IMG/VR virus record: IMGVR_UViG_3300043466_000268
Coordinates: 1-32,810 of that record
Source of the DNA: a virus
Strand: one strand, 5' to 3'
DNA length: 32,810 nt
Shown here: in pieces, positions 2,333 to 22,091 of the stretch
How the letters are laid out: every line of letters starts with the position of its first letter
Numbering within the stretch: position 1 is the first letter of the stretch
Made by a program: the position numbers and the translations under genes
The notes under the pieces: generated by a model
Databases searched by the model: none
Told to the model about the DNA's origin: nothing
The model's input: only the letters and a program-made list of their open reading frames with translations

Positions 2333-4486
2333 CTATGCAATATAGTAACCATTAAAATCTACTAACAAGTACATATTTCTTGAATAAGCTTTTGTATTTA
2401 TATCAACAACAAAAGGTACTCCATAATCACTAAATGAAGCAAATTTATTTGGATTAGTTAGTATAGTAAAAATTCCGGGATATGCTCCTCCAATACCTCT
2501 ATCAATATCAAAATAGACAGTAAAACCAAATTTTATAATCCCATTTTCATATCTAAAGTCATTCATTGGATTTTGTGGCCAATCTTTAATTATATTTCTG
2601 TAATAAGTAGTAACCTGAATTGGAGAATTAAATATTGGTGTAAATGGTACTGTGTCTCTAACAACATAAGGAGTAGGAAACGGCTCATTTAATCTTTGAC
2701 CTTCTTGAGTAGTTTTTAAAATTGGTTTATTTACATCATTAAATGGATTTCTGTCTGGTGCCCAAAAAACCTCTAATCTATAATTGTTAACCCAAAAAAT
2801 GCTAGCATTTGATTGACTAACAAATTGCGCATTTTTATTAAAATAAAAACTAACTACTTGATTTCTTGGTACAGATGCGTTATTTGAATTTATAACCAAG
2901 TTATCATTTAACGTTTTTGGAACATCAAAAGCATAATAAAAATCTAATGGTATTTTAAACATTACTCTAAATGAATATTGACCAGCAGGTATATAATTTG
3001 TTTTGCTTGAAAAACGAACTTGATCTCCGCTTTGAACATTAAAATTAAAGTAAGTAGTATTATAATCAATTTGCAATTGACTAAAAGCGCTTATCCAGCT
3101 AGGAATAAAAGCATTAATACTTAATTCATCGTTTCCACTATTTCCGTTATTAATAGTTAATGTAGCTATGTAATAAGCATTATCTCCCGGAGCAGCTCTT
3201 ACTGCATATCCCGGAGGATCGAAATCAAAGTTGTAAACGCTAGTAGTTAAAGAATAAACCGGTTCTTGATTAATTGTAATACTTGTGGAATTTGAGTTTA
3301 CTGGAGGATTTTGAATATTACCTCCCGTTCCAAAAGTAAAAAAACTATAAGTTCCAATACCAATACCAGTAACGGTAAATCTAAAATCTGCATTATAGCT
3401 AGGAGACAACTGCTGGTCAGTAGTCATTGTAATAGTATTCGTAGCTTGATTTACGCTAAAACTCCAACCAGCTGGAGCATTTTGTAAACCAGTATAATAA
3501 AGTCCACCCGGCAAATTACAAGTAAGCGTAATTGTTCCACTTGTAAATGTCGTAAAGTTTCTAATGTTTATATTTAATGTAGTATTTTGAAATCTGTTTA
3601 TTGTACTTGGACTAATACTTTGTACAAGTTGCAAGTTTGGATAAACAAATCCACAAGTCCCTTCGCTATTTGCTACCGCTTGAGCGTTTGCATCTAGCCA
3701 GTTATTGGCAAGCCTTACCGATTCTGCTCTAGCTTGATTTTCTGCGTCTTGTTGGCTAACAAAGCTAGTAATTGTAGTAGTAAAAAATGGACTCCAAACT
3801 TGAACAAATGAACCGGTGCCAAATTCTCCGCAGTTGTTACGTTGTAAAGTTCTATCTCTGCGCTCTGTAACCGTAGCCGTATAAGTCGCAGTCGTTACGG
3901 TTGTCGCAGTTGTATTGGAATAACGTATTGTTGGATCTCCTCCTCCATTAACACTAGCTTGGTTATAATATGTGCCAGAATTAAAGGTTTTAATAATAAT
4001 ATAGAATGAAGCTGACTGGCCAATTTGTAAAGCACCAGTATAAGTAATCAGAACATTTTGACCCGTAATTGTATAAGTCATGTCGCTACCGGTAACGGAG
4101 CTTATTATTATATTATTAGGAATAGTATCGTAAATAAAGATATTACCTTGAGTAGAAGTCTCTCCGTTATTTGTAACCGTCAAAAAGTAGTTAAAGAACT
4201 CGCCAGCGTTGGCAGATGTCGCAGCTTGCTTTGTGATTTGGAGAAATGGCTTTGGCTGACCGCAAGTTTGACAATACCGGTACCATTCGTCTGGAAAAAC
4301 CGTAGGCAAAATTCCGTCTGGCTTATAAGGCGAATTTTGATTTAATGGTATTGTCTGCCCTGAGATATTTTGCAGTTGTCCAAGCTCGGCAATTGTAATA
4401 GAAATCGGAGGATTCTGTAAAGATTCCCCCGTGATTTCATTGTATACATCTGCAAAGGACATCTGTCCCGAAGCTTGTAAAGCCAT
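2333..4486 (-). CDS. Large surface/structural protein with DUF11- and DUF5977-like modules
   Basis: 717 aa. The N-terminal 90 residues include a CxxC pair (YCQTCGQP). Next comes an Ig-like DUF11-type repeat (KQAATSANAGEFFNYFLTVT, about residues 105-195), then a DUF5977-like stretch (QDAENQARAESVRLANNWLD ... EGTC, about residues 240-280), then further beta-rich repeats such as PSTINRFQNTTLNINIRNF. The composition (Asn, Thr, Ser, Tyr-rich; few charges) is typical of extracellular beta proteins. It follows the tail fibre gene by one base. Likely role: a virion-surface or host-binding protein of the tail tip. The specific location is inference. Confidence 0.78.
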   Translation of the reverse strand: MALQASGQMSFADVYNEITGESLQNPPISITIAELGQLQNISGQTIPLNQNSPYKPDGILPTVFPDEWYRYCQTCGQPKPFLQITKQAATSANAGEFFNYFLTVTNNGETSTQGNIFIYDTIPNNIIISSVTGSDMTYTITGQNVLITYTGALQIGQSASFYIIIKTFNSGTYYNQASVNGGGDPTIRYSNTTATTVTTATYTATVTERRDRTLQRNNCGEFGTGSFVQVWSPFFTTTITSFVSQQDAENQARAESVRLANNWLDANAQAVANSEGTCGFVYPNLQLVQSISPSTINRFQNTTLNINIRNFTTFTSGTITLTCNLPGGLYYTGLQNAPAGWSFSVNQATNTITMTTDQQLSPSYNADFRFTVTGIGIGTYSFFTFGTGGNIQNPPVNSNSTSITINQEPVYSLTTSVYNFDFDPPGYAVRAAPGDNAYYIATLTINNGNSGNDELSINAFIPSWISAFSQLQIDYNTTYFNFNVQSGDQVRFSSKTNYIPAGQYSFRVMFKIPLDFYYAFDVPKTLNDNLVINSNNASVPRNQVVSFYFNKNAQFVSQSNASIFWVNNYRLEVFWAPDRNPFNDVNKPILKTTQEGQRLNEPFPTPYVVRDTVPFTPIFNSPIQVTTYYRNIIKDWPQNPMNDFRYENGIIKFGFTVYFDIDRGIGGAYPGIFTILTNPNKFASFSDYGVPFVVDINTKAYSRNMYLLVDFNGYYIA

Positions 4487-7837: not shown

Positions 7838-9688
7838 TTATCCTTTTTTAATAACCGTTTGAGCTAACCATCTGTGCCGGCAACTTGGAGAATGGTCTCC
7901 GTTTGGTCTAGTCCACCATCCACCTCGTCTGTCAAATACCGAATACCCAAGTCTTGCGCTAATCGTTTCAATTTCTGCTCTTGAATACAATCTATCTAAC
8001 TGCATTAATCTAGCGCAGAATGGTCTGCTTGGTCGCTGAGCGCTATTGCGTTGTCCCGGTGGAATGTCTGTTCTCCACTCGTAAGAATAACGAACCATAA
8101 AAGTAGTAGTCTGCGCCTTTGGAGCATTTAACTCGCTTAATGGTCTTGGCAAACTTCTTTCTAGCGTTCCGCCTACTTCTTTAATTCTTACTATGCCTCT
8201 AGTAGATAAACCTTCTAGAACTCTCTTGATAATATTTACATCTGTCTTTAGCGTTCCAGAAATAACCTCAGCGGTAACGCGCTTATCCTTTTGAATCAAG
8301 TCTAATACGTTTGCTTCTAATACCGTTAGCGCTTGCTCTGCAAACTCTAAATTCATCTCCTCCTCCGCTAAAGTAGCGCTTGCGCCAAATACCTCTCTTG
8401 ATTTAAATATAGCGTAGTCTTCTTTGCTTTCGCCAAACTCTGCAAACATGTTAATGACATCGTCATCAGAAAAACTAGCTTTCATCTGCTCAGTTGCAGT
8501 AGGAATAGCCTCGTTTATTGTTTCTGTATCATACTTAGACATATCAATACCTAGCTTCTCAAGTATCCAAGCTTTCGGAGCAATCTCTTTAATAACTGCC
8601 TCTGAAAAGTCGATACCGATAGGCTCGACTGGTACTATTTGCATTTCGCTTGAAGCACCATGTAATTTGGCAAGTAGATTGAATACTTGTTCAAGATATA
8701 TTTGCTTATCATTGATATATGTATTTTTAAATATCTCGTATGAATCACGCATCTGCTGACGAGAACCTAATTGTCCCGGAGTAGAAATACCAAACAAGTC
8801 TGGCGCAGTAATTTGATGACCAGCGTATAAGTTTTGCTGAATTAACTTATCTACGTTTTGGAAGTCTTCCTTTGTAATATCCGAAGCTCCTAAGTCATCA
8901 ACTATCGGCTTGCGTGATGCGTCGTTTGTAAATGAAAGGATAAACTTCTTACCATCTGATCCGGTAAATCTTTCCGTAAACTTGCGCTCTATTGTGCGCT
9001 TCTCGTCATCTGTTGGCTCGCCATTTGGTAAAGTGATTAACTTGCTTGCGCTGAATCCAGTTTGAGCATTTCCTAAAACATGCTTAGATATTTCAATGTC
9101 TGACTCAATGTAATTTAAAGCACCGAAATAACCCGGTAAAGCGTAAGCATTAAGATTAGGACGATACTCCTTTAGGTAAAGAATCTGAGTACCTGTGCGA
9201 ACTTGAGAATTGAATGCGTTGTAAACTTCTTTCTTGTAATTTCTTTCTTTCCAATTGTCCGAATACCAGTACTGAGTATTATCTTCGTTGGCTCTTACTT
9301 TAGTGTAGTCAATATGATAAATCTCATTTAGATTCTCGCCTACTTGAGACCAAATGATTTGCAAGTATGCACCGCCAAAGATTTCAATGTCGGTAGATAC
9401 TTTGCGCAATACTTCGGTTAACGACTCTGATTGGTTTGCGCTCGCGATGAATTGTTCACCAATGGGATCAGCGTCCCCTACTATTTTGAAACCGTTACCA
9501 GTAATGTAGTTAACCTTGCCTTTGATAATCGCATTATGCTTCGCGGACTTGTTAAACAAGTCAACTAGATAATTGGGATATTCGTTTTTATGTCCAAACT
9601 CAATATAGCCTCCGCCTTCGCCTTTCTTCTCCTTGTATTCTGGTTGCTTGGCTTCCGCGAATGAAAGCACTAATAATTCATTGCTCAT
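7838..9688 (-). CDS. Portal protein fused to winged-helix-like and MuF-like C-terminal domains
   Basis: 616 aa. Residues 1 to about 400 look like a phage portal: an acidic/Gly N-terminus, YPNYLVDLFNKSAKHNAIIKG, YITGNGFKI, FGGAYLQIIWS and GHQITAPDLFGISTPGQLGS. A central segment (about 450-525) resembles a winged helix (LEANVLDLIQKDKRVTAEVI followed by IIKRVLEGLSTRGIVRIKE). The last 85 residues resemble a MuF-type or related domain ending in GGWWTRPNGDHSPSCRHRW. Portals normally form the dodecameric DNA gate at the capsid vertex. Here the gene lies after the capsid gene, not next to the terminase. The ATG overlaps the stop of the 128-aa gene (ATGA). Confidence 0.88.
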   Translation of the reverse strand: MSNELLVLSFAEAKQPEYKEKKGEGGGYIEFGHKNEYPNYLVDLFNKSAKHNAIIKGKVNYITGNGFKIVGDADPIGEQFIASANQSESLTEVLRKVSTDIEIFGGAYLQIIWSQVGENLNEIYHIDYTKVRANEDNTQYWYSDNWKERNYKKEVYNAFNSQVRTGTQILYLKEYRPNLNAYALPGYFGALNYIESDIEISKHVLGNAQTGFSASKLITLPNGEPTDDEKRTIERKFTERFTGSDGKKFILSFTNDASRKPIVDDLGASDITKEDFQNVDKLIQQNLYAGHQITAPDLFGISTPGQLGSRQQMRDSYEIFKNTYINDKQIYLEQVFNLLAKLHGASSEMQIVPVEPIGIDFSEAVIKEIAPKAWILEKLGIDMSKYDTETINEAIPTATEQMKASFSDDDVINMFAEFGESKEDYAIFKSREVFGASATLAEEEMNLEFAEQALTVLEANVLDLIQKDKRVTAEVISGTLKTDVNIIKRVLEGLSTRGIVRIKEVGGTLERSLPRPLSELNAPKAQTTTFMVRYSYEWRTDIPPGQRNSAQRPSRPFCARLMQLDRLYSRAEIETISARLGYSVFDRRGGWWTRPNGDHSPSCRHRWLAQTVIKKG

Positions 9689-12966: not shown

Positions 12967-14709
12967 TTATATTCTTGCTGCGTTTTCTATTCTTCTAATT
13001 CTTTTTTGGCTTCCAGTAATATCCGACTCCACTACATAAGCTCTAGCTACTACGTTGCTAATTGTGTTTAAACTTGTAGCATCTAAAGCCGTTGGCGCTA
13101 TCGGTTGAAATTGTGGAACAATAGGAGCAATAGTATTTGAAACTGGAACGTTAGGAGTTGAAGAACCACCGGAACTAGCTGATTGTATAATATTTTTAGC
13201 TTGCGCAATATTTGCTAAAATCTTTATTATACCAGCAGCGTATTTTGCGAATCCACTAATACCACCAGTTGCTAAGTTGTCAGGACTAGGAGCAGAAGTA
13301 GAAGCAGTTAAACCAGAGATTGCTACACCAGTATCAATTGCAATTTGAGTTAACGCTAATCCCTTTTGTAATCCAGAACCTTGTTCTGCAAAACCAGATA
13401 AAATTCCTAGAGTATCTGCTGCAATATTTAACTTAGCAATCTTTAATGCATTTGCGGTTCTAATTTCAGAATCTGCGCTTTTTTTAAGCGACTTATCCAT
13501 TGCACTTGTAATAATTGAAGCAGTTTTATTTCTTTCTGAAATTTCTTTAGCTCCTTGAATTTCTAACTTTTCAAGTTTTAAATCAATTTCTTTTTCTTCG
13601 TCCTCAGTTAATTTTCTGCGATTATCTTTAAACAATTGGAATTTTTCTTCCTCGAATTTCTTAGTTATAAAATACTTTGTTTTTTCATTATTACTGAAAA
13701 GCTCAATGTCGCTTTGGTATTGTAAATTTAACTCAGCTAATTTTGCTTCATATTCTGGAGTTCCTTTTTTGCCTATCTCTAGTAAACGCTCAAATCTCTT
13801 TTGCTCTAAAGCAATTTCCTTCTCTACTCTTTCCTCAGCAATTTGTAATTCTCTTTGTTGAGATTTTAATTTATTAGCAACTTGTATTTCATTATAATTT
13901 TCTTTTGCCTGAGTTAATTCTTTTTCGGCTTCTTTTTGAACATCTGTATTTCCTTGAACTTCTTCGCCATACCTTGCTAATGTTTTTATTCTTAAACGGG
14001 CAAATTTTTCTTCTATTGCAGAAATTTCTTCCTCTTTTGCTTTGCTTATTTTAGCTTCATTAATTGCATTTTTACGCTGTCTTTCTAACGACTCAAGCTC
14101 TCCTTCTTTTTGCGCTTTTGCTCCCCTAGCAGAATCGTCTTGAAATTGCTTTAACTTTTTCCTTACATCCTCAATTCCATCCTTATATTGTTGCCAAAGT
14201 AAATAACCAGATGCCAATGTTACCGCTAATGCGCCTAGTCCACTTGCTATAATAGCACCCCGAAGCGTTGCAAAAGCTTCTACTACTTGAGTTTTAATTA
14301 CTAATGCTAAGTTCTTAAAACCATCAATTGAACCTAAGATAGTATTAAGTCCTTCGGATAAAGCTAATGCGCCTTGTACTTTTAATAATTGCTTTTGTAC
14401 ATTCTCCGATTCTACACCAAATAAAGCTAATGCGCCTTGAGCAGCTGCAAATGCTCCAGTAACTCCAGCGATAGATTGACCAAAAGCTCTAAACTTGGCA
14501 TCCGGATTGAATGCGTCAATAGTATCTTTTGCATCGCCAATACGATCCTTTAACTCTGCTGCTCTTCGTGCTGCATTTGCAATTGCTTGTGCTGAAGCTC
14601 CAGCCGTATCTTGTAACCTTGCTAACTCTTGCGTTGCCTCTCTTAATTGACTACGCAGACTTTTAGTGTCCGCTACTAGATTTATACCTACCGTTTCATT
14701 TACTGCCAT
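12967..14709 (-). CDS. Tape measure protein
   Basis: 580 aa. The N-terminal 60 residues form a coiled-coil start (DTKSLRSQLREATQELARL). A membrane-like segment lies at about 150-175 (GAIIASGLGALAVTLASGYL). A long Lys/Glu/Arg-rich helical region follows (about 185-405), and then a Gly/Ala-rich hydrophobic region (LGILSGFAEQGSGLQKGLAL, ISGFAKYAAGIIKILANIA). This is the standard tape-measure design. Its length would set the tail length; 580 aa suggests a fairly short tail. The start overlaps the preceding gene (TAATG). It is the last tail gene before the head module, an unusual position. Confidence 0.88.
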   Translation of the reverse strand: MAVNETVGINLVADTKSLRSQLREATQELARLQDTAGASAQAIANAARRAAELKDRIGDAKDTIDAFNPDAKFRAFGQSIAGVTGAFAAAQGALALFGVESENVQKQLLKVQGALALSEGLNTILGSIDGFKNLALVIKTQVVEAFATLRGAIIASGLGALAVTLASGYLLWQQYKDGIEDVRKKLKQFQDDSARGAKAQKEGELESLERQRKNAINEAKISKAKEEEISAIEEKFARLRIKTLARYGEEVQGNTDVQKEAEKELTQAKENYNEIQVANKLKSQQRELQIAEERVEKEIALEQKRFERLLEIGKKGTPEYEAKLAELNLQYQSDIELFSNNEKTKYFITKKFEEEKFQLFKDNRRKLTEDEEKEIDLKLEKLEIQGAKEISERNKTASIITSAMDKSLKKSADSEIRTANALKIAKLNIAADTLGILSGFAEQGSGLQKGLALTQIAIDTGVAISGLTASTSAPSPDNLATGGISGFAKYAAGIIKILANIAQAKNIIQSASSGGSSTPNVPVSNTIAPIVPQFQPIAPTALDATSLNTISNVVARAYVVESDITGSQKRIRRIENAARI

Positions 14710-16889
14710 TAGTTTGCGTATGTTAATTCAAGCACTCTCAATAATTCTACTTTGGTCGTTTTTGGTATGGTTGGATTAAAATCAATAATTTTATTTAATC
14801 TAAATAAAGCTCCGTCTATATAAATTAACCTTGCAAAATTTAAAGAATAAATATCTTCGATTGTCAAATATAAATAGCAAGTAAGAAGCTTACTATCCTT
14901 GCTTGTAATCTCCGCAATATACTCAGACCAAAAAGCAGTAAATAAATTGGTAGTCGGATAAGGATTTGTTAACGTAAAATATAGTTGATTTGGAACTGCA
15001 AAGTTCAAATCGTTTGTTGGCTCAGTAGGATTATCTAAATGTCCAGCATATCCGTAAGCATTTAAATGTCCAGAAGTAGCATTTGAATTAGAAGGATAAG
15101 CTTGTTTAATATGATAATTTGCTACACCTTCAACATAAGCATACTGCATAATCCTAATGTTGTGGTCTTTAGGAATTTCAGTCCCGTTTTCAATACTAAA
15201 TATTGAACTTGCAAGTTTTGTGTCAGCAGAAGAACGTTTAACCAAAATCGAAGGCGAAAATATTACTTCTACATTCTGGCTATCTTCTGCAAATTGATAC
15301 TTGCTATCCTCCCTTCTATCTGCGTAGGTTTGATTGTATTTGCTTTGGTATTGGTCATTATAATAATCATCATCCTCTTTGTACTTGAACTCAAAATAAC
15401 GAGCGTTTAATTCGCTCATAGGTTTAAGGGAAACCTCTTTACTATGGTCTACTTTGTTTGACCAGTCTACGGAATCCGCTGAAGGATCGGAAAGCAAAAG
15501 TAAACCAGTAGGATCGCCTGGTTCTCCATGCAAAAGCAATTCGCCTAAATCATTTATCTTTAAGAATCCAGCTCCTTTTAAATAGAAGTCAATATATGGC
15601 TCAATAAGTAAATGATTGCTGAGTTCAGCATCCTCAAAAACATAAAGATTAAATAGCCTACATACTGAAGCAAAGAAATCCTTTTGTTGAATTCCTTTTG
15701 GAAGTAGGTTTTTCATGTTTAACTCGTCCCCTAATTCTGCTTTTGTTACTACTGGATAATCAGTAATAAATCTTAACGTAATGTCTGGAAATAAAATACA
15801 ATCATTTGCTGCCGAACCAAATGAATAATCAACTGAAATTACATCGCCTGAGGATAAGCTTGTTTCAATTATTACATCTATCTCAAAAATTTGAAATTCT
15901 GCCGTTGTCGTAAATGATTCGTAATATAAAAGTGAAGCATTTTTGTAAACGCTAAAAGTAAAGTTTCCTACCCTATTAAGGTAAGGCAAACCATTTAATC
16001 TAATTTTACCTAGTAGATTTTCTTCTTCTCCATTATATTCAAATACTTGATTATTTGTAGTTTCAAATAATGACAAATTGCTTATGATAAGAAATTCAAG
16101 TGTTCCGGAAGTTGGCAGTAATCCTTCAGTTCTTGTAACTTCAAGCAAGTCTTGCCTTAATTGTTCAAGCTTTGCTTTGTTATTTGGGATAAGCAAGCTT
16201 TTGAAATATGGAGTTTCAAAAAACGCAGACTCGTATGTATAGTTTGCATTCTTAATAATCGAATCCATGAATTCGTAAACGTGAAAGGCTGGTCTAAACG
16301 CATCAATATGGTAATCTGAGTTATTTCCGTTATTACCTCCATGCTTGCATTTTCCGTAATCAATCAAAGGATAAACTACACCAATTCCAGAAGCTACTGC
16401 ACCAGACGGATCCCATGAAGCTACTATATTATCAATAGTCCATAGTTCTGCATAATCATTAAAGTTATCCATGTCTTCAATTAGGCTATTGCCAATCGCA
16501 GCAGAAAAACCTCCAAGCTCGCCAAATACTACGCACTCGTATTCAATTGCTCCGTCATTGATTCGAACCTCTAGTAAGCGTAATACACCTTTAAAAACTT
16601 GAATTTTATTTACAAAGATTTTAGCCTCCGCTTGCTTAGTTGGATCAAAATTGTAGCCAACATTTGGAAGGTCAGGATTGCTAACGAAATAATTATTAGC
16701 ACTAGCAAAATTATATATGTGGCCAAAGACCTTATTGTTATTAGCATTGCCCGGAAGTGTGATGGTCTTTGAATAGTTTGTATTCCTAGACGCAAAGTCC
16801 TTAATGTCATCTATTGCATAGTTTAGTTCTGCGCCTATATCATCAAATAAATCTAATCTACTACCTTCAATTAATATTTCACTTATCAT
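14709..16889 (-). CDS. Large tail/baseplate protein (726 aa)
   Basis: Starts MISEILIEGSRLDLFDDIGA. The N-terminal 150 residues (FASRNTNYSKTITLPGNANN; KIFVNKIQVFKGVLRLLEV) are of a type I recognise in distal-tail or baseplate proteins of Bacteroidetes phages. The remainder is beta-rich with many aromatic residues. It overlaps both neighbours by only a few bases (ATGA and TAATG), so it is translated with the 378-aa and tape measure proteins. A role at the tail tip, perhaps as hub, is inferred from size and position. I see no lysozyme or peptidase motif. Confidence 0.78.
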   Translation of the reverse strand: MISEILIEGSRLDLFDDIGAELNYAIDDIKDFASRNTNYSKTITLPGNANNNKVFGHIYNFASANNYFVSNPDLPNVGYNFDPTKQAEAKIFVNKIQVFKGVLRLLEVRINDGAIEYECVVFGELGGFSAAIGNSLIEDMDNFNDYAELWTIDNIVASWDPSGAVASGIGVVYPLIDYGKCKHGGNNGNNSDYHIDAFRPAFHVYEFMDSIIKNANYTYESAFFETPYFKSLLIPNNKAKLEQLRQDLLEVTRTEGLLPTSGTLEFLIISNLSLFETTNNQVFEYNGEEENLLGKIRLNGLPYLNRVGNFTFSVYKNASLLYYESFTTTAEFQIFEIDVIIETSLSSGDVISVDYSFGSAANDCILFPDITLRFITDYPVVTKAELGDELNMKNLLPKGIQQKDFFASVCRLFNLYVFEDAELSNHLLIEPYIDFYLKGAGFLKINDLGELLLHGEPGDPTGLLLLSDPSADSVDWSNKVDHSKEVSLKPMSELNARYFEFKYKEDDDYYNDQYQSKYNQTYADRREDSKYQFAEDSQNVEVIFSPSILVKRSSADTKLASSIFSIENGTEIPKDHNIRIMQYAYVEGVANYHIKQAYPSNSNATSGHLNAYGYAGHLDNPTEPTNDLNFAVPNQLYFTLTNPYPTTNLFTAFWSEYIAEITSKDSKLLTCYLYLTIEDIYSLNFARLIYIDGALFRLNKIIDFNPTIPKTTKVELLRVLELTYAN

Positions 16890-18022
16890 CTGTATTGAGT
16901 TTGTTGTTTGACTCCTAAATCAAAGTTCAATTCGTAGTTAAACATTTTGTCTGCCGTGTCTACCTTTTCTTCATAGCTAGTCTCCCGCATGATAATAGGA
17001 TAGTAGTCATCTCCTCTGTATAAGTAAGCCTCGTTACTAGATATTAACTGAGCGCCAAGCTCGTAATCCGCAGCGCTTAAATAATCAGAAACAACTTTGT
17101 AGCCGTATTGAACATTACCAGCAAAGCCTTGAGTTCCTCCAAAGTGAACACCAGAACTATTTTTGTGTGCCATTGTAGTTCCTACTCTTCTATACTCGTT
17201 TGTCTTGTAAGTAGAACGAGATACTTTTTGGCTTTCTCTTGATAGTAACCTAAATACATAAGAGTCGTAACCTCCAAATTTATTTTGGAAAACTAATTGA
17301 ACTGGAGTAAAACGCGGAGCGCAAACTTGCTTAACTACGATGGAGTCTGATCCGATGGTAACTCGCCAAGAATAAGTACTAGTAGTAATAAAAGTACTTC
17401 CCAAATATGTGTTGATTGCAAAGGGAGAAAAGTCTAAAATAAGTCCAAGATTAGTACCAAGTCCAGCGCCAGTAGCGCTTGCCCCATCATTAGCACCGCC
17501 TTCGGTTAGCTTTTGAATTGTGGCCGTAACGTTTGCAGCTGAAGCGTTAAAATATGTAATATAAAACTTTTCGCCCGGCACTACATTGCCAGCAGTTCTG
17601 TCTCTAGAAGTTAAGAATTTATTTGCATATCCGCTTATTGATTCTCTAAAAGGATCAAGCGCATAGTTCCAACCTTTAGCAGTTGAGGAACTAAGATTAG
17701 TTGTTAATGAACCGCCAACTTGCTCCCCATAAATTACCGTAAAGTCGACGCTAAGAAAGTTAGCTGAGTATTGGAGTAGGTTGAATCCGCTTGTTCCAAA
17801 GCCAGTAGAGAAGTAGTTTCTGATAATTGGAGCTGCATCGAATACACCATATCCACCTTCGTCTGGATAATTTTTAACGGTTGCGACGGTAACGCCACCA
17901 ACTTGTACATCAAATACATATTTAAAATTGTTTTGCGTTGAATTGTTTGAGCTAACAACAAACCACAGCGCATCGTGTGCTGAAGTATAAGAAGCTGGAA
18001 CGCTTTGAACCGTTATTGCCAT
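16886..18022 (-). CDS. Tail protein, probable distal-tail/baseplate component (378 aa)
   Basis: Starts MAITVQSVPASYTSAHDALW. It is beta-rich, with FDAAPIIRNYFSTGF near residue 65, and a segment CAPRFTPVQLVFQNKFGGYDSYVF near residue 230 that recurs in tail proteins of Bacteroidetes phages. The C-terminal part contains RVGTTMAHKNSSG. It lies between the tail-completion candidate and the 726-aa tail protein with TAATG and ATGA overlaps. Whether it is the distal tail protein or another baseplate ring protein cannot be decided from sequence. Confidence 0.76.
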   Translation of the reverse strand: MAITVQSVPASYTSAHDALWFVVSSNNSTQNNFKYVFDVQVGGVTVATVKNYPDEGGYGVFDAAPIIRNYFSTGFGTSGFNLLQYSANFLSVDFTVIYGEQVGGSLTTNLSSSTAKGWNYALDPFRESISGYANKFLTSRDRTAGNVVPGEKFYITYFNASAANVTATIQKLTEGGANDGASATGAGLGTNLGLILDFSPFAINTYLGSTFITTSTYSWRVTIGSDSIVVKQVCAPRFTPVQLVFQNKFGGYDSYVFRLLSRESQKVSRSTYKTNEYRRVGTTMAHKNSSGVHFGGTQGFAGNVQYGYKVVSDYLSAADYELGAQLISSNEAYLYRGDDYYPIIMRETSYEEKVDTADKMFNYELNFDLGVKQQTQYR

Positions 18023-18690
18023 TATTTAAAATTTTGTCTAATATTTAATATTATGTCTTGACCTAATGCTTTGGCTAGTTTAACTTGAAATTCTTTACCA
18101 AATGCTTTATCTAAATTATCCTCAAAAAATCCTACTCTTGGCATCCCTCTTTTCTTTATTGCCTTAGCCGTATTTGTTGCAATCTGTTTTAACTTAGCTT
18201 GCTGATTAGTAATATTACCAAGTGTTTTACGTTTACGTTGTAATGGACTTAAATTCTTTCTTTGGTCATCGTTCCTAATATAATTTCTATGCCTCATATA
18301 CCATTGCATCAAAGCATTAACCATACTAGCAGACACGCTTAATGTCCGATAGGAGTATGGACTAGAAATAGGTTGTTTGCTTTTAATGCCTTTAACTCCC
18401 TTATTTTGAAAATCATAATATTTAGAAGCAGGATTATTTTTACTATAACCAATTGTTAAGCTATACTTATTTCCTTCTTGCTTTATGGAGCTTACCTCCA
18501 TGTCTGACAAATTGCCTTTGTCTACTTTTTTCTTTTTATTTATTCTAGCAATTGCAAGCTTCATAAATTGATTTGCTCCTTCAAGCATTACCGCTTGAAC
18601 TCCGTCTAGTTCTACTTCTGCTTGCCTAGATATACCGCCAGCAGTAAAGTTATTACCTAAAGAAGCTTGCGCTTGACTAATGCTTTGCAT
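18022..18690 (-). CDS. Tail-completion/neck (HK97 gp10-like) protein candidate
   Basis: 222 aa and basic. The N-terminal helix region (QAVMLEGANQFMKLAIARIN) is followed by a beta section (KYSLTIGYSKNNPASKYYDF then QNKGVKG) that recalls gp10-like neck proteins, where a tyrosine-rich strand precedes the NKG turn. The C-terminal half is highly basic with helices (RKNLSPLQRKRKTLGNI). The start overlaps the end of the frameshifted chaperone reading frame by 14 bases. A tail-tube completion role is likely but unproven. Confidence 0.68.
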   Translation of the reverse strand: MQSISQAQASLGNNFTAGGISRQAEVELDGVQAVMLEGANQFMKLAIARINKKKKVDKGNLSDMEVSSIKQEGNKYSLTIGYSKNNPASKYYDFQNKGVKGIKSKQPISSPYSYRTLSVSASMVNALMQWYMRHRNYIRNDDQRKNLSPLQRKRKTLGNITNQQAKLKQIATNTAKAIKKRGMPRVGFFEDNLDKAFGKEFQVKLAKALGQDIILNIRQNFK

Positions 18691-18958
18691 ACGCTTTTTT
18701 CATTTGATCGGAATCGAAAGCATTTTTAGCTTTCAAATAGCTTAAATCATTTAGTGCTTGTATGGTTGGTAATTCATATACATCTGCAAGCTTTATCTTT
18801 TCGTGTTCGGAAATTATTGAAGCCTGATAAATCCACCCATATTGTCGCATAAATCCTGCACCGTTTTCTCTGCCTGCTCCTGCGGCATTCCCGTCTTGAT
18901 CATCTCCTCCTTGAAATAATCCTTTAAATTCATTATCGAGTCGGCGAATACTTGACAA
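18677..18958 (-). CDS. Tail assembly chaperone extension (T part, made by -1 frameshift)
   Basis: 93 codons from the TTG next to the T9 run to the stop at 18677-18679. There is no good start codon of its own; it is entered by a -1 shift at the slippery run (18957-18965). The linker is rich in Gly/Asp/Asn (GGDDQDGNAAGAGRENGAG). The C-terminal part (RQYGWIYQASIISEHEKIKL, ELPTIQALNDLSYLKAKN) resembles the T domain of tail chaperones that bind the tape measure. The predicted fusion is 167 + 93 = 260 aa. It overlaps the 0-frame protein by 145 bases and the next gene by 14. Confidence 0.85.
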   Translation of the reverse strand: MSSIRRLDNEFKGLFQGGDDQDGNAAGAGRENGAGFMRQYGWIYQASIISEHEKIKLADVYELPTIQALNDLSYLKAKNAFDSDQMKKAYAKH

Positions 18959-19458
18959 AAAAAAACCACGCTTCCATAAACCGATTCGAATGGCGCACCT
19001 AGTAAATCTTGCGCATATTCATCGTGCTTACTTGCATCGTACTTTGCTAACTTCCATCCTCGCCAAGTCTTCTTCATAGGCATAATCATTGAAGCTGCAA
19101 TCTTATGCAAGTTGTTTGTTATATCTGAACCAAAGTACTTCGTTTCAATGTAGCGCGCGTATGGAATATTTCTAATGTCGTAAATGCACCTATATTGCCT
19201 TCCGTTAATCTTTATAAAATCTTTTGGCTTTGGCTCTGGTTTTGTCTTGGTAATAAAATCAATCTCTTTCAACTGCTCTTTTAAATCAGCAATCGACAAA
19301 GAATCAATTTGCGCTTCTGTTCGGTTAGTTAGAATTGCTAAAGTTTTTACCGCCAAATCTAGTTCTGTATCTCCGTCTTTTTTAGACATAAGATTTTCGA
19401 TTTGTTGGTATTGCCAAAGTGTTACATTACTCCAGTTCATATCTTTAATAAATAGCAT
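18814..19458 (-). CDS. Tail assembly chaperone (G part, 0 frame)
   Basis: 214 aa if read without frameshift. It is mostly helical: WQYQQIENLMSKKDGDTELD, AVKTLAILTNRTEAQIDSLS, a beta turn INGRQYRCIYDIRNIPYARY, and SVVFF at the slippery site (codons 164-168). Established knowledge: siphophage tail chaperones are made as G and longer G-T forms and keep the tape measure soluble while the tube polymerises. The ATG at 19458 overlaps the terL stop (TAATG). An alternative ATG at 19440 (MNWSNVTLW) would leave 16 bases of leader matching the 17-bp repeated element, so the start is not certain. Confidence 0.82.
   Translation of the reverse strand: MLFIKDMNWSNVTLWQYQQIENLMSKKDGDTELDLAVKTLAILTNRTEAQIDSLSIADLKEQLKEIDFITKTKPEPKPKDFIKINGRQYRCIYDIRNIPYARYIETKYFGSDITNNLHKIAASMIMPMKKTWRGWKLAKYDASKHDEYAQDLLGAPFESVYGSVVFFCQVFADSIMNLKDYFKEEMIKTGMPQEQAEKTVQDLCDNMGGFIRLQ
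18957..18966 (-). other. -1 ribosomal frameshift site (T9 slippery run)
   Basis: The minus strand reads G followed by nine T and then GTC. In the 0 frame the codons are GTT TTT TTT TGT, so T TTT TTT is a perfect X XXY YYZ heptamer. A -1 slip continues with TTG TCA into the 93-codon frame. Both frames downstream look like real protein. Whether a downstream RNA structure stimulates the shift was not established. Confidence 0.85.
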
Positions 19459-20624
19459 TATGAAAAATTATACCTTCCGCTCCCAGACTTGAAGTCAAAC
19501 TTGCGCCAAGCTAAGGCCAAAGCACAAACCGTGTCATCGTGAAAGCCAGAAGGAGCGGAGTACTTTACTCCGTGAGAACTATATTGATATTCAAAAATTT
19601 CAAGCTCTTGCCTTATCATTCCATCTGGATAGTGTATCCGTTCTTGATGGATAGCTACTTGCAAACCTAACATTATTTCCTGCTTGCTTTGGCTAGTAAA
19701 TTTAAAGCCTTCTACATCTAGGCCATCTCTTTGCAATTGCTCTACGATTGGATCGCCTACACCAGTAGCATCTATTATCATTGGCGCTTTAGGCAAGTTG
19801 CGAATCTTATTCTGTGTGCTTGCCCAGTCAGATTGAAAGCGTTCAAAATAAGCCACATTCCCTGCGTTGTCCATCCCGATAATTACCGTCCAGTCGTTAT
19901 ACTTAGCCAAGTCAATTCCGTAGCATTTAACCGCGTTAGTCGAAATATTCGAAACGCATTTTAAGATTGCTTGGCTACCAAATGGATTTGCTGCGTTCTC
20001 TGCTGGGTTAGCCATGTACTCCTGCTCGAATACTACCGTTGGCAGTTCAGCTCTTGCGGCATCAATCTCTGTCTTTGCAATATGTGGATTGTCGTAGGTA
20101 GAATATTTAAATGATTCCCATTCATCATTAGGAAGCAATCCTTTTAAGTAAAGCGAATAAAAGAAGTTCTTGCCTTTAGGAGTAGAAACAAATAAAGCCT
20201 TGCCTTTGTAATCGGTTAGTGTCGGCCGAATAGAATTAAGCCATCCGTTTTCAAGATCAGGTATAAATGATGCCTCGTCAATAATAACGTAATGAAACTT
20301 TAAACCTCGAAGGTTGTCTAGTCGTTCTCCGGTAAAGAACCGAATTGTTCCGCCAGTCATTAATTTTAAAGTAAGGTCTGAACGATTGGCAACTGCTACC
20401 TCCATCGGTAGTAACTTGCAAAGCTCGTCAAAAAATACTTTGGCTAAATGATAGGTAGGAGTTATGTAAGCCACTTGTTGGCCTTTCAAAGATTCAACAG
20501 AAGAAATTACTTGGCTGATTAAAGATTTGCCAAACCTTCGACCGCACATCAAAACTCTAAATCGAGCTTTACTCCCTAGAACTTTCCTCTGTGCTTCGTG
20601 AGGTATCGGTAAAATAATCTCCAT
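19458..20624 (-). CDS. terL: Terminase large subunit
   Basis: 388 aa from the ATG at 20624 (a TTG two codons upstream is also open). The ATPase domain has Walker A GRRFGKS (28-34), Walker B VIIDEA (113-118) and coupling motif STPKG (148-152). The nuclease domain has the expected acidic residues: Asp238 in GIDLAKYNDW, Asp285 in IIDATGVGDP, Asp363/364 in FHDDTVCALA. It would pump and cut DNA at the portal. It is somewhat shorter than many TerL proteins but has all motifs. It overlaps the small subunit by 56 bases and is followed by the tail chaperones, not the portal. Confidence 0.96.
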   Translation of the reverse strand: MEIILPIPHEAQRKVLGSKARFRVLMCGRRFGKSLISQVISSVESLKGQQVAYITPTYHLAKVFFDELCKLLPMEVAVANRSDLTLKLMTGGTIRFFTGERLDNLRGLKFHYVIIDEASFIPDLENGWLNSIRPTLTDYKGKALFVSTPKGKNFFYSLYLKGLLPNDEWESFKYSTYDNPHIAKTEIDAARAELPTVVFEQEYMANPAENAANPFGSQAILKCVSNISTNAVKCYGIDLAKYNDWTVIIGMDNAGNVAYFERFQSDWASTQNKIRNLPKAPMIIDATGVGDPIVEQLQRDGLDVEGFKFTSQSKQEIMLGLQVAIHQERIHYPDGMIRQELEIFEYQYSSHGVKYSAPSGFHDDTVCALALAWRKFDFKSGSGRYNFS

Positions 20625-20967
20625 TTGCAAACTTGATAGTAATCTCTGTGTCTTGCTTTACATCTGCCGTTTCCTTTGGCTTACCAAATACTCTGCTTAG
20701 TAATGTTTCAATTGAATACAAACTACCTTTTTCCAATGACTTGCGCATCGCTCCAGCTATTGTCTTCTCTAATATAGTAGCATCTGGATTCTCATAAACC
20801 TTTCTTAGCTCCTCAATGTTCATTGAAAGCATATTACGAATAGACATATTAATCTCAGTCATATTGTATCCGGCATCTTTTAATCCAGTTACATAAGACT
20901 TTGGCCTTCCGTTTGGATTGCCTGATTGACCTTTCTTAAAAGGAATTAAATTGTCTTCGCTTGCCAT
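20569..20967 (-). CDS. terS: Terminase small subunit-like protein (DUF5681-type N-terminus)
   Basis: 132 aa. The N-terminal FKKGQSGNPNGRPKSYVTGL is the hallmark of DUF5681 proteins, usually encoded next to TerL. A helical middle region follows (EELRKVYENPDATILEKTIA, MRKSLEKGSLYSIETLLSR). The C-terminus is polar and Thr/Ser/Glu-rich. It probably recognises phage DNA and recruits TerL. It overlaps terL by 56 bases and the methyltransferase gene by 22 bases. Small-subunit function for this family is inferred from gene order. Confidence 0.85.
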   Translation of the reverse strand: MASEDNLIPFKKGQSGNPNGRPKSYVTGLKDAGYNMTEINMSIRNMLSMNIEELRKVYENPDATILEKTIAGAMRKSLEKGSLYSIETLLSRVFGKPKETADVKQDTEITIKFANGDYFTDTSRSTEESSRE

Positions 20968-22091
20968 ATTTCTCCGTTTCTTTTAATTACTAAACTTGGA
21001 TCTAATTGATTCATTCTTTCAAGTATAACTTGACAATATTTTGGATCTAATTCTATGCCAAAACATTTTCTACCAATTTGATGAGAAGCTACCATAGTAG
21101 AACCTGATCCTAAAAAAGCATCATAAATATTTTTTTTATCTGGATTATCTTTTAAAGCCATTTCTATTAATGAAATTGGTTTCATAGTAGGATGAACGGT
21201 ATTTCTTTCTCTTTTAGTTTGCCATACATCTCCTCTAATTGTTTTTTGTCCTCCAAATTTTCCGTGATATAAAATTATCTCATGTTGCTTGAAATACTTG
21301 TCTAAATGCTGAGCTGGATTTACCTTATCCCAAACAATAAAAGATTTAACTGGCTTTTGCAAATCTTCCATTGCCTTTCTAAATAAATGAGAATATTGCC
21401 AAGAACAACAAACATAAAAAGTATCGCAGTTAACATTTATTGCATCATAAATAAATTGAGTAAAATCTTCGTCACTCATTTTATCATTTGCAATCTTATC
21501 TCTTTTGTCTTTTACTCCTTGATAATCTATATTATAAGGAGGATCCGTAAAAACCATTTCAATATTATTACCGTTTAATACTTTAGCAACTGCATCACTA
21601 TCTGTAGAATCTCCGCATAGCAATCTGTGATTTCCAATCTCAAATAAATCTCCTAAAACTATATCCGTTTTAATTTCATCAGGTACTTCGTAATTATCTT
21701 CTTCGGCAGTTCCTTCGTCTTTTATATCAAATACTGGCAAATCTAATCCCCAAGCCTCAAGCTCTTCGCTATCCCATTCGTTGGCAATCATATCCCAGTC
21801 CCATTCGCCTCCGCTTGTATTATCCTTGATAAGAAATTCTCTCTGTTTGTCCTCTGATAAATCAGCGACAATAACTGGTATCTCTTTAATGCCTGCCTCT
21901 TTACAAGCTCTAAACCTCATATTGCCACCAAGAATAATCATATCCTTGTTTACAACTATTGGCCGAATGTTGAGCATCTCAGGGAAATCCTTTACGGATT
22001 GCACTAATTTTTTAAATTTATCGTCCTTTATTAATCTTGGATTATTAGGATTTAATTTAATGTCAGTAATCTTGGTTAAGCTTGGTTGCAT
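20946..22091 (-). CDS. ParB-domain / DNA N-methyltransferase fusion
   Basis: 381 aa. Residues 1-95 form a ParB/sulfiredoxin-type domain (IRPIVVNKDMIILGGNMRFR ... CKEAGIKEIPVIVADLSEDK). Residues 145-365 are a DNA amino-methyltransferase with the catalytic DPPY (183-186), HPTMKP (300-305) and the SAM-binding FLGSGST (326-332). The order DPPY before FxGxG places it in the beta class; the product could be N6-methyladenine or N4-methylcytosine. There is no restriction gene beside it, so it probably protects phage DNA or marks it for packaging. It overlaps terS by 22 bases. Confidence 0.93.
   Translation of the reverse strand: MQPSLTKITDIKLNPNNPRLIKDDKFKKLVQSVKDFPEMLNIRPIVVNKDMIILGGNMRFRACKEAGIKEIPVIVADLSEDKQREFLIKDNTSGGEWDWDMIANEWDSEELEAWGLDLPVFDIKDEGTAEEDNYEVPDEIKTDIVLGDLFEIGNHRLLCGDSTDSDAVAKVLNGNNIEMVFTDPPYNIDYQGVKDKRDKIANDKMSDEDFTQFIYDAINVNCDTFYVCCSWQYSHLFRKAMEDLQKPVKSFIVWDKVNPAQHLDKYFKQHEIILYHGKFGGQKTIRGDVWQTKRERNTVHPTMKPISLIEMALKDNPDKKNIYDAFLGSGSTMVASHQIGRKCFGIELDPKYCQVILERMNQLDPSLVIKRNGEIWQAKTI

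Follow-up and report, generated by a model that had tools for sequence, protein, structure and literature searches.

How does a tailed phage read a run of nine T residues that lies where two overlapping reading frames meet, in the gene directly behind its large terminase gene? We examined this question in a window of 32,810 bases, which makes up a single IMG/VR uncultured virus record and holds only one A/T run of at least nine bases, an A9 on the plus strand at 18957-18965. The best explanation, which we hold with moderate confidence, is a recoded chaperone-type gene, G/G-T, expressed mainly by transcriptional slippage on this run.

The first frame, G, is an ORF of 214 aa on the minus strand (18814..19458) and has about 180 relatives within its clade. 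Its start ATG shares one base with the stop codon of terL, the last base of that codon, and the slip site corresponds to its codons 165-167. On the minus strand the junction reads AGC GTG GTT TTT TTT TGT CAA, with the heptamer T_TTT_TTT in the 0 frame of 19458..18814; the recoding site itself (18957..18965, minus strand) has the form G-T9-G, read as GTT TTT TTT TGT in the 0 frame. An earlier note on this DNA had described such a nine-T run with an in-frame heptamer, and we confirmed the A9 at 18957-18965, with a C next to it at plus-strand position 18966. The second frame, T, is a -1-frame ORF of 93 codons from the slip (18677..18958, minus strand; LSSIRR...GFMRQYGWIYQ...AYAKH) that has its stop at 18677 and is conserved in both clades described below. 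The 0 frame continues for 47 further codons past the T9, and the C-terminus of G and the N-terminus of T share an overlap (18817..18958, minus strand) that the substitution pattern in 107 relatives marks as dual-coded. These codon counts, and a predicted G-T fusion of 260 aa, were those of the earlier note and were reproduced on recomputation. The trans-frame peptide predicted for this phage is HDEYAQDLLGAPFESVYGSVVFFLSSIR, and the 0-frame peptide is HDEYAQDLLGAPFESVYGSVVFFCQVFADSIMNLK.

Under the proposed mechanism, expression would usually yield G, whereas in a minority of events at the T9 the first part of G would be fused to the -1 frame to yield G-T. RNA polymerase would add one U on the run, and the resulting U10 message would read GTT TTT TTT TTG TCA. 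Some G-T may also come from -1 slippage of the ribosome on T_TTT_TTT.

To what extent is the run itself conserved? A protein search of IMG/VR returned 11 relatives with 64-100% identity, all of which carried G-T9-G in the same phase with both frames open. With profile searches this clade (clade 1) grew to 109 distinct loci, with G identities as low as about 43%, and exactly nine Ts were present in 107 of them. One host-linked clade-1 match (L173) belonged to a Chitinophagaceae MAG, which suggests that the hosts are Bacteroidota. Further searches set out from a second clade (clade 2), that of the cultured phages P12024S and P12024L described below, and one of them used T-domain patterns alone and was hence blind to the run; the further loci again carried T9, or T10 through substitution in a flank. 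Across all loci, the 303 distinct junctions comprised 289 with T9 and 12 with T10, besides one with an internal deletion and one with T5, and no T7 or T8 occurred among them. The comparison of homologues that the earlier note had proposed as a check thus found the run and both frames conserved, with at least nine Ts at 301 of 303 junctions. A broken run beside two open frames, which the earlier note had held would speak against a programmed event, was confined among the 303 to an internal deletion in L073/L150 and to the error-riddled L340. In the former (the same contig, at about 4350-4480), an in-frame deletion in G takes out the run and leaves both frames open; the latter has T5 and many indels in an error-prone contig. 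The locus L072, which is similar to L073, stops near the same point, and L073 may be misassembled. The contigs of L148, L149, L416 and L452 begin at or within T.

At the level of single bases, no substitution was found at positions 2-10, the nine Ts, in 289 aligned junctions, compared with 17 changes at position 1, where all four bases occur, and 11 at position 11, where three do; no other base within 30 nt was invariant. Because this substitution tally was limited to runs of at least nine Ts, run length is more fairly judged from the unrestricted tally of 303 junctions. The first codon of the site is GTT, CTT, TTT or ATT (always V, L, I or F), and the fourth always begins with T (TAT, TGT, TAC, TGC, TGG, TTC or TTG, encoding Y, C, W, F or L). 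The wobble bases of Val-Phe-Phe underwent no change on a tree of 107 relatives, against a mean of 13 changes at other conserved 2-fold codons and 16 at 4-fold codons. Judged from these alignments, at least nine Ts are required.

The G protein also led to cultured phages. A tblastn search of G against annotated phages gave no match, and it was through fold similarity alone that a relative was found there: an AlphaFold model of G (pLDDT 85), used for the fold search, matched P12024S_38 of Nonlabens phage P12024S (Foldseek E 1.7e-8, about 21% identity). In P12024S and P12024L (Nonlabens/Persicivirga; JQ823122 and JQ823123), G follows terL as it does in the window. P12024S has C-T9-A in the same phase as the window, with the -1 frame, which encodes the T domain known from the window, running into P12024S_39, and P12024L (locus L344) has an identical design. 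Both differ from the window in that Leu (CTT) rather than Val precedes the run and that the 0-frame tail is shorter, at 24 codons past the run. P12024S_38 and P12024S_39 are annotated as separate hypothetical proteins, the latter as its own gene from an ATG, and are assigned to different PHROGs (32199 and 38404), but a single recoded gene (L342:23136-23830) is the better reading. No comparable T9 gene was present in the regions examined of Flavobacterium phage 6H, a weak fold match, or of Polaribacter phage P12002L.

Does the slip occur during transcription or on the ribosome? The strongest alternative is programmed -1 ribosomal frameshifting of the lambda type, in which two tRNA-Phe would slip back one base on T_TTT_TTT and the two extra Ts would be kept by the proteins. 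We regard this as possible but not probable. A perfect heptamer lies in the 0 frame at every junction, and -1 ribosomal frameshifting is the known mechanism of lambda G/GT and is also established in many tailed phages (PMC5009743); this route, in addition, needs no unusual behaviour of the polymerase. However, seven bases should be enough for a ribosome, yet nine are invariant and neither T7 nor T8 occurs in the 303 junctions despite the variability of positions 1 and 11, although the protein may partly hold positions 2 and 10. U_UUU_UUU also belongs to the sites that in E. coli are much weaker than A_AAA_AAG (PMC5009743). Moreover, no significant or common pseudoknot-free RNA fold was found downstream of the run in 22 representatives (mean z of -0.92 over 60 nt and -0.58 over 100 nt), and inspection by eye gave no consistent Shine-Dalgarno-like element upstream.

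Bacterial mRNA is known to gain nucleotides by slippage on nine As or Ts (PMC5009743), and an A/T run of nine whose length is conserved among homologues has been described as a mark of purposeful transcriptional slippage (PMC1088944). The run described here is an A/T homopolymer of nine or more bases with its length conserved among homologues. Because exactly nine bases are constrained and no downstream RNA structure was found, transcriptional slippage is favoured over, or alongside, ribosomal slippage, and is probably at work here. Given recoding, we infer that transcription is the main slipping step, a preference that is real but not strong. Of the programmed -1 frameshift put forward in the earlier note, the fusion of the two frames stands, on the invariant run, the dual coding and T frames without a start, whereas for the slipping step transcription suits the data no less well than the ribosome, given the nine-base constraint and the lack of any downstream RNA structure in the search.

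We also asked whether such runs are avoided elsewhere, using 261 kb of non-G ORFs from related phages. The T7 heptamer occurred at 0.72 of expectation in frame, compared with 0.71 and 0.72 out of frame, and is therefore not specially avoided in frame, a further point against the ribosomal route. T8 was depleted to 0.22 in these ORFs. Runs of at least nine As were depleted to 0.30 of expectation in whatever frame, as would be expected if the polymerases of these hosts slip there. Runs of at least nine Ts outside the gene were not depleted (3 seen, 2.4 expected), which weighs against a run-length mechanism.

What the two products do is suggested by their neighbours, all of which lie on the minus strand. 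Directly upstream of G is terL, the large terminase gene (19458..20630; PHROG phrog_2, E 2e-41; Pfam Terminase_6N). Directly downstream is a candidate HK97 gp10-like tail component (18022..18690), which matched Pfam HK97-gp10_like at E 0.007, under the curated cut-off, and is syntenic in 105 of 107 relatives. It is followed by a 378-aa beta-rich protein in what is putatively the tail-tube gene position (16886..18022; AlphaFold pLDDT 87; syntenic in 100 of 107), the model of which gave nothing convincing against PDB folds, just Ig-like chance matches. Next comes a 726-aa conserved tail-region protein (14709..16889; syntenic in 92 of 107), and P12024S has a similar protein of 754 aa at its position in a comparison by eye. 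The 580-aa product of the following gene (12967..14709) is a probable tape-measure protein, judged by eye from its coiled-coil-like and hydrophobic sequence. Homologues of this candidate, 556 to 802 aa long, were present in 8 of 8 records tested. Their N-terminus is conserved (L173, L009, L084, L140, L104, L164, L089 and L043), and the variation in length between 556 and 802 codons predicts different tail lengths. The order terL, G/T, gp10-like, 378-aa and 726-aa protein is common to about 100 relatives, and the gene layout of P12024S, read by eye, is similar to that of the window. The T ORF is separated from the tape-measure candidate by three genes, and the gene list thus bears out the position given in the earlier note, right behind terL and at a distance of three genes from the tape measure.

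Together, the conserved gene order, the P12024S layout and the G/GT anatomy are best explained if G/G-T is a pair of tail assembly chaperones, and on this anatomy and synteny we consider that identity likely. By analogy with lambda gpG/gpGT, the G portion would keep hold of the tape-measure protein, with the T portion recruiting the subunit of the tail tube. G and T had no informative match, and none to a known tail chaperone, in Pfam and PHROGs; a profile search of PDB sequences likewise gave none; and Foldseek returned no PDB entry at E 0.001 or better for the G model. One weak BFVD match to a protein named tail assembly chaperone covered 53 columns at E 0.42. Tail chaperone families are known to diverge until their kinship can no longer be recognised. 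The likeness to lambda G/GT drawn in the earlier note is thus plausible in gene order and anatomy, although it finds no counterpart in a family or fold match.

The same missing matches leave room for a second alternative, in which the recoding is real but the proteins serve a different terL-linked step, for example packaging or the joining of head and tail. The position of the gene would suit this, since it stands directly after terL and three genes before the tape measure, whereas lambda G/GT stands directly before it. We nevertheless think it unlikely: the two overlapping ORFs, the -1 frame and the small T domain form a G/GT architecture, and tail-region genes follow in an order kept in about 100 relatives and in P12024S.

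A third alternative would do without recoding altogether. T could be an independent overlapping gene that starts either with the TTG at the run or with an ATG at its codon 37, in which case the run would be incidental. For the window taken alone such a start is conceivable, given these two codons; T codon 1 is TTG in most clade-1 members, the window included, 105 of 107 relatives have the ATG (FMRQYGW) at codon 37, and it is from such an ATG that P12024S_39 has been annotated as a separate gene. However, T codon 1 is TTA rather than TTG in 29 of 107 members, and none of the 107 has a -1-frame start codon ahead of the run. Several T frames of clade 2 contain no ATG, GTG or TTG at all, and in this clade the first T-frame start mostly lies at codon 58 or later, beyond the conserved WGWY motif. 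These startless T frames exclude independent initiation for the family, and an independent start would in addition leave the invariant T9 unexplained.

The substitution pattern leads to the same point. Among 107 relatives, parsimony changes per site at the three 0-frame codon positions numbered 5.6/3.0/17.6 ahead of the run, compared with 5.1/6.8/7.1 where the frames overlap; counted in the T frame, the region that encodes T alone had 6.1/3.7/14.9. The loss of the third-position peak exactly in the overlap indicates that both frames are coded. The peak has already gone in the first 16 codons past the run, well ahead of the ATG at T codon 37, which indicates that the -1 frame is used from the run onward rather than from that ATG. 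The 0-frame C-terminus beyond the run is itself conserved. We therefore consider an independent T gene highly improbable, and programmed recoding of G/T, one gene from two overlapping ORFs, nearly certain on the comparative evidence.

A chance T run was considered and rejected. A sequencing or assembly error in a genome that truly has one continuous ORF through T10 might be suspected of an uncultured contig, and in L141 the ORFs are indeed fused in frame by T10, but it can be dismissed almost entirely, because the same run recurs in about 300 other contigs from many metagenomes (T9 at 289 of 303 distinct junctions) and in the sequenced isolates P12024S and P12024L, with constraint on both frames and on the 0-frame C-terminus past the run. 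L141 itself (3512-4279), a near relative of L139, has G and T as one continuous ORF of 256 codons. Its T10 may be a real variant or an assembly error; with the ORFs fused in this way, a separate G could arise only through slippage.

We compared the locus with known recoding systems. Lambda G/GT and its tailed-phage counterparts were described by Xu, Hendrix and Duda (2004), as cited in PMC5009743 and PMC3711429. As in lambda, the first ORF is short and has the slippery site near its end, the second is in the -1 frame and needs no start of its own, and the tape measure lies downstream in the same block. Both overlapping ORFs are under protein constraint, the slippery site at the frame junction is conserved, and T lacks a start of its own in some members of clade 2. 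Unlike lambda, which has a mixed heptamer, these phages have an invariant T9, and the gene lies right after terL instead of between the major tail protein and tape-measure genes. There is also no detectable sequence or fold similarity to lambda G/GT, and the mechanism is possibly transcriptional. In Thermus dnaX and IS elements (PMC1088944, PMC5009743), as here, a homopolymer of nine bases has a conserved length, and the number of added bases sets the choice of product, as we propose for G/G-T. However, those examples are A runs (PMC1088944), whereas this is a T run in a gene of the phage structural region; and slippage in dnaX gives a shorter product (PMC1088944), whereas here it would give the longer one.

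The broader proposal, that programmed transcriptional slippage on an obligatory T9 gives rise to the G/GT-type chaperones of a large unannotated group of tailed phages, whose hosts are apparently Bacteroidota, is one for which we see the case as evenly balanced. If it is true, RNA polymerase rather than the ribosome sets the ratio of G to G-T, and in aquatic phages that form a large and abundant group a ratio-sensitive step of tail assembly is fixed at mRNA synthesis. To our knowledge, no phage tail chaperone has previously been associated with transcriptional slippage. Recoding of tail chaperones is already known; what is new is the obligatory nine-T site in a large unannotated group with cultured members, and we found no prior description of this site in the open-licence literature. 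P12024S and P12024L were both isolated on a cultured host, which makes the choice between transcription and translation directly testable. The recoded genes are absent from current annotation, with PHROGs splitting the halves of P12024S into separate unknown families, and a simple annotation rule for these phages would be to look behind terL for overlapping ORFs joined at nine or more Ts.

Two further features of the window were observed outside the recoded locus. The portal protein (616 aa; 7838-9688, minus strand) has a long C-terminal extension, possibly a fused domain, with weak winged-helix-like Pfam matches and a Cys/His/Trp-rich end. At 20946-22091 (minus strand), adjoining the small-terminase candidate, a ParB-like N-terminal domain is fused to an N6/N4 DNA methylase.
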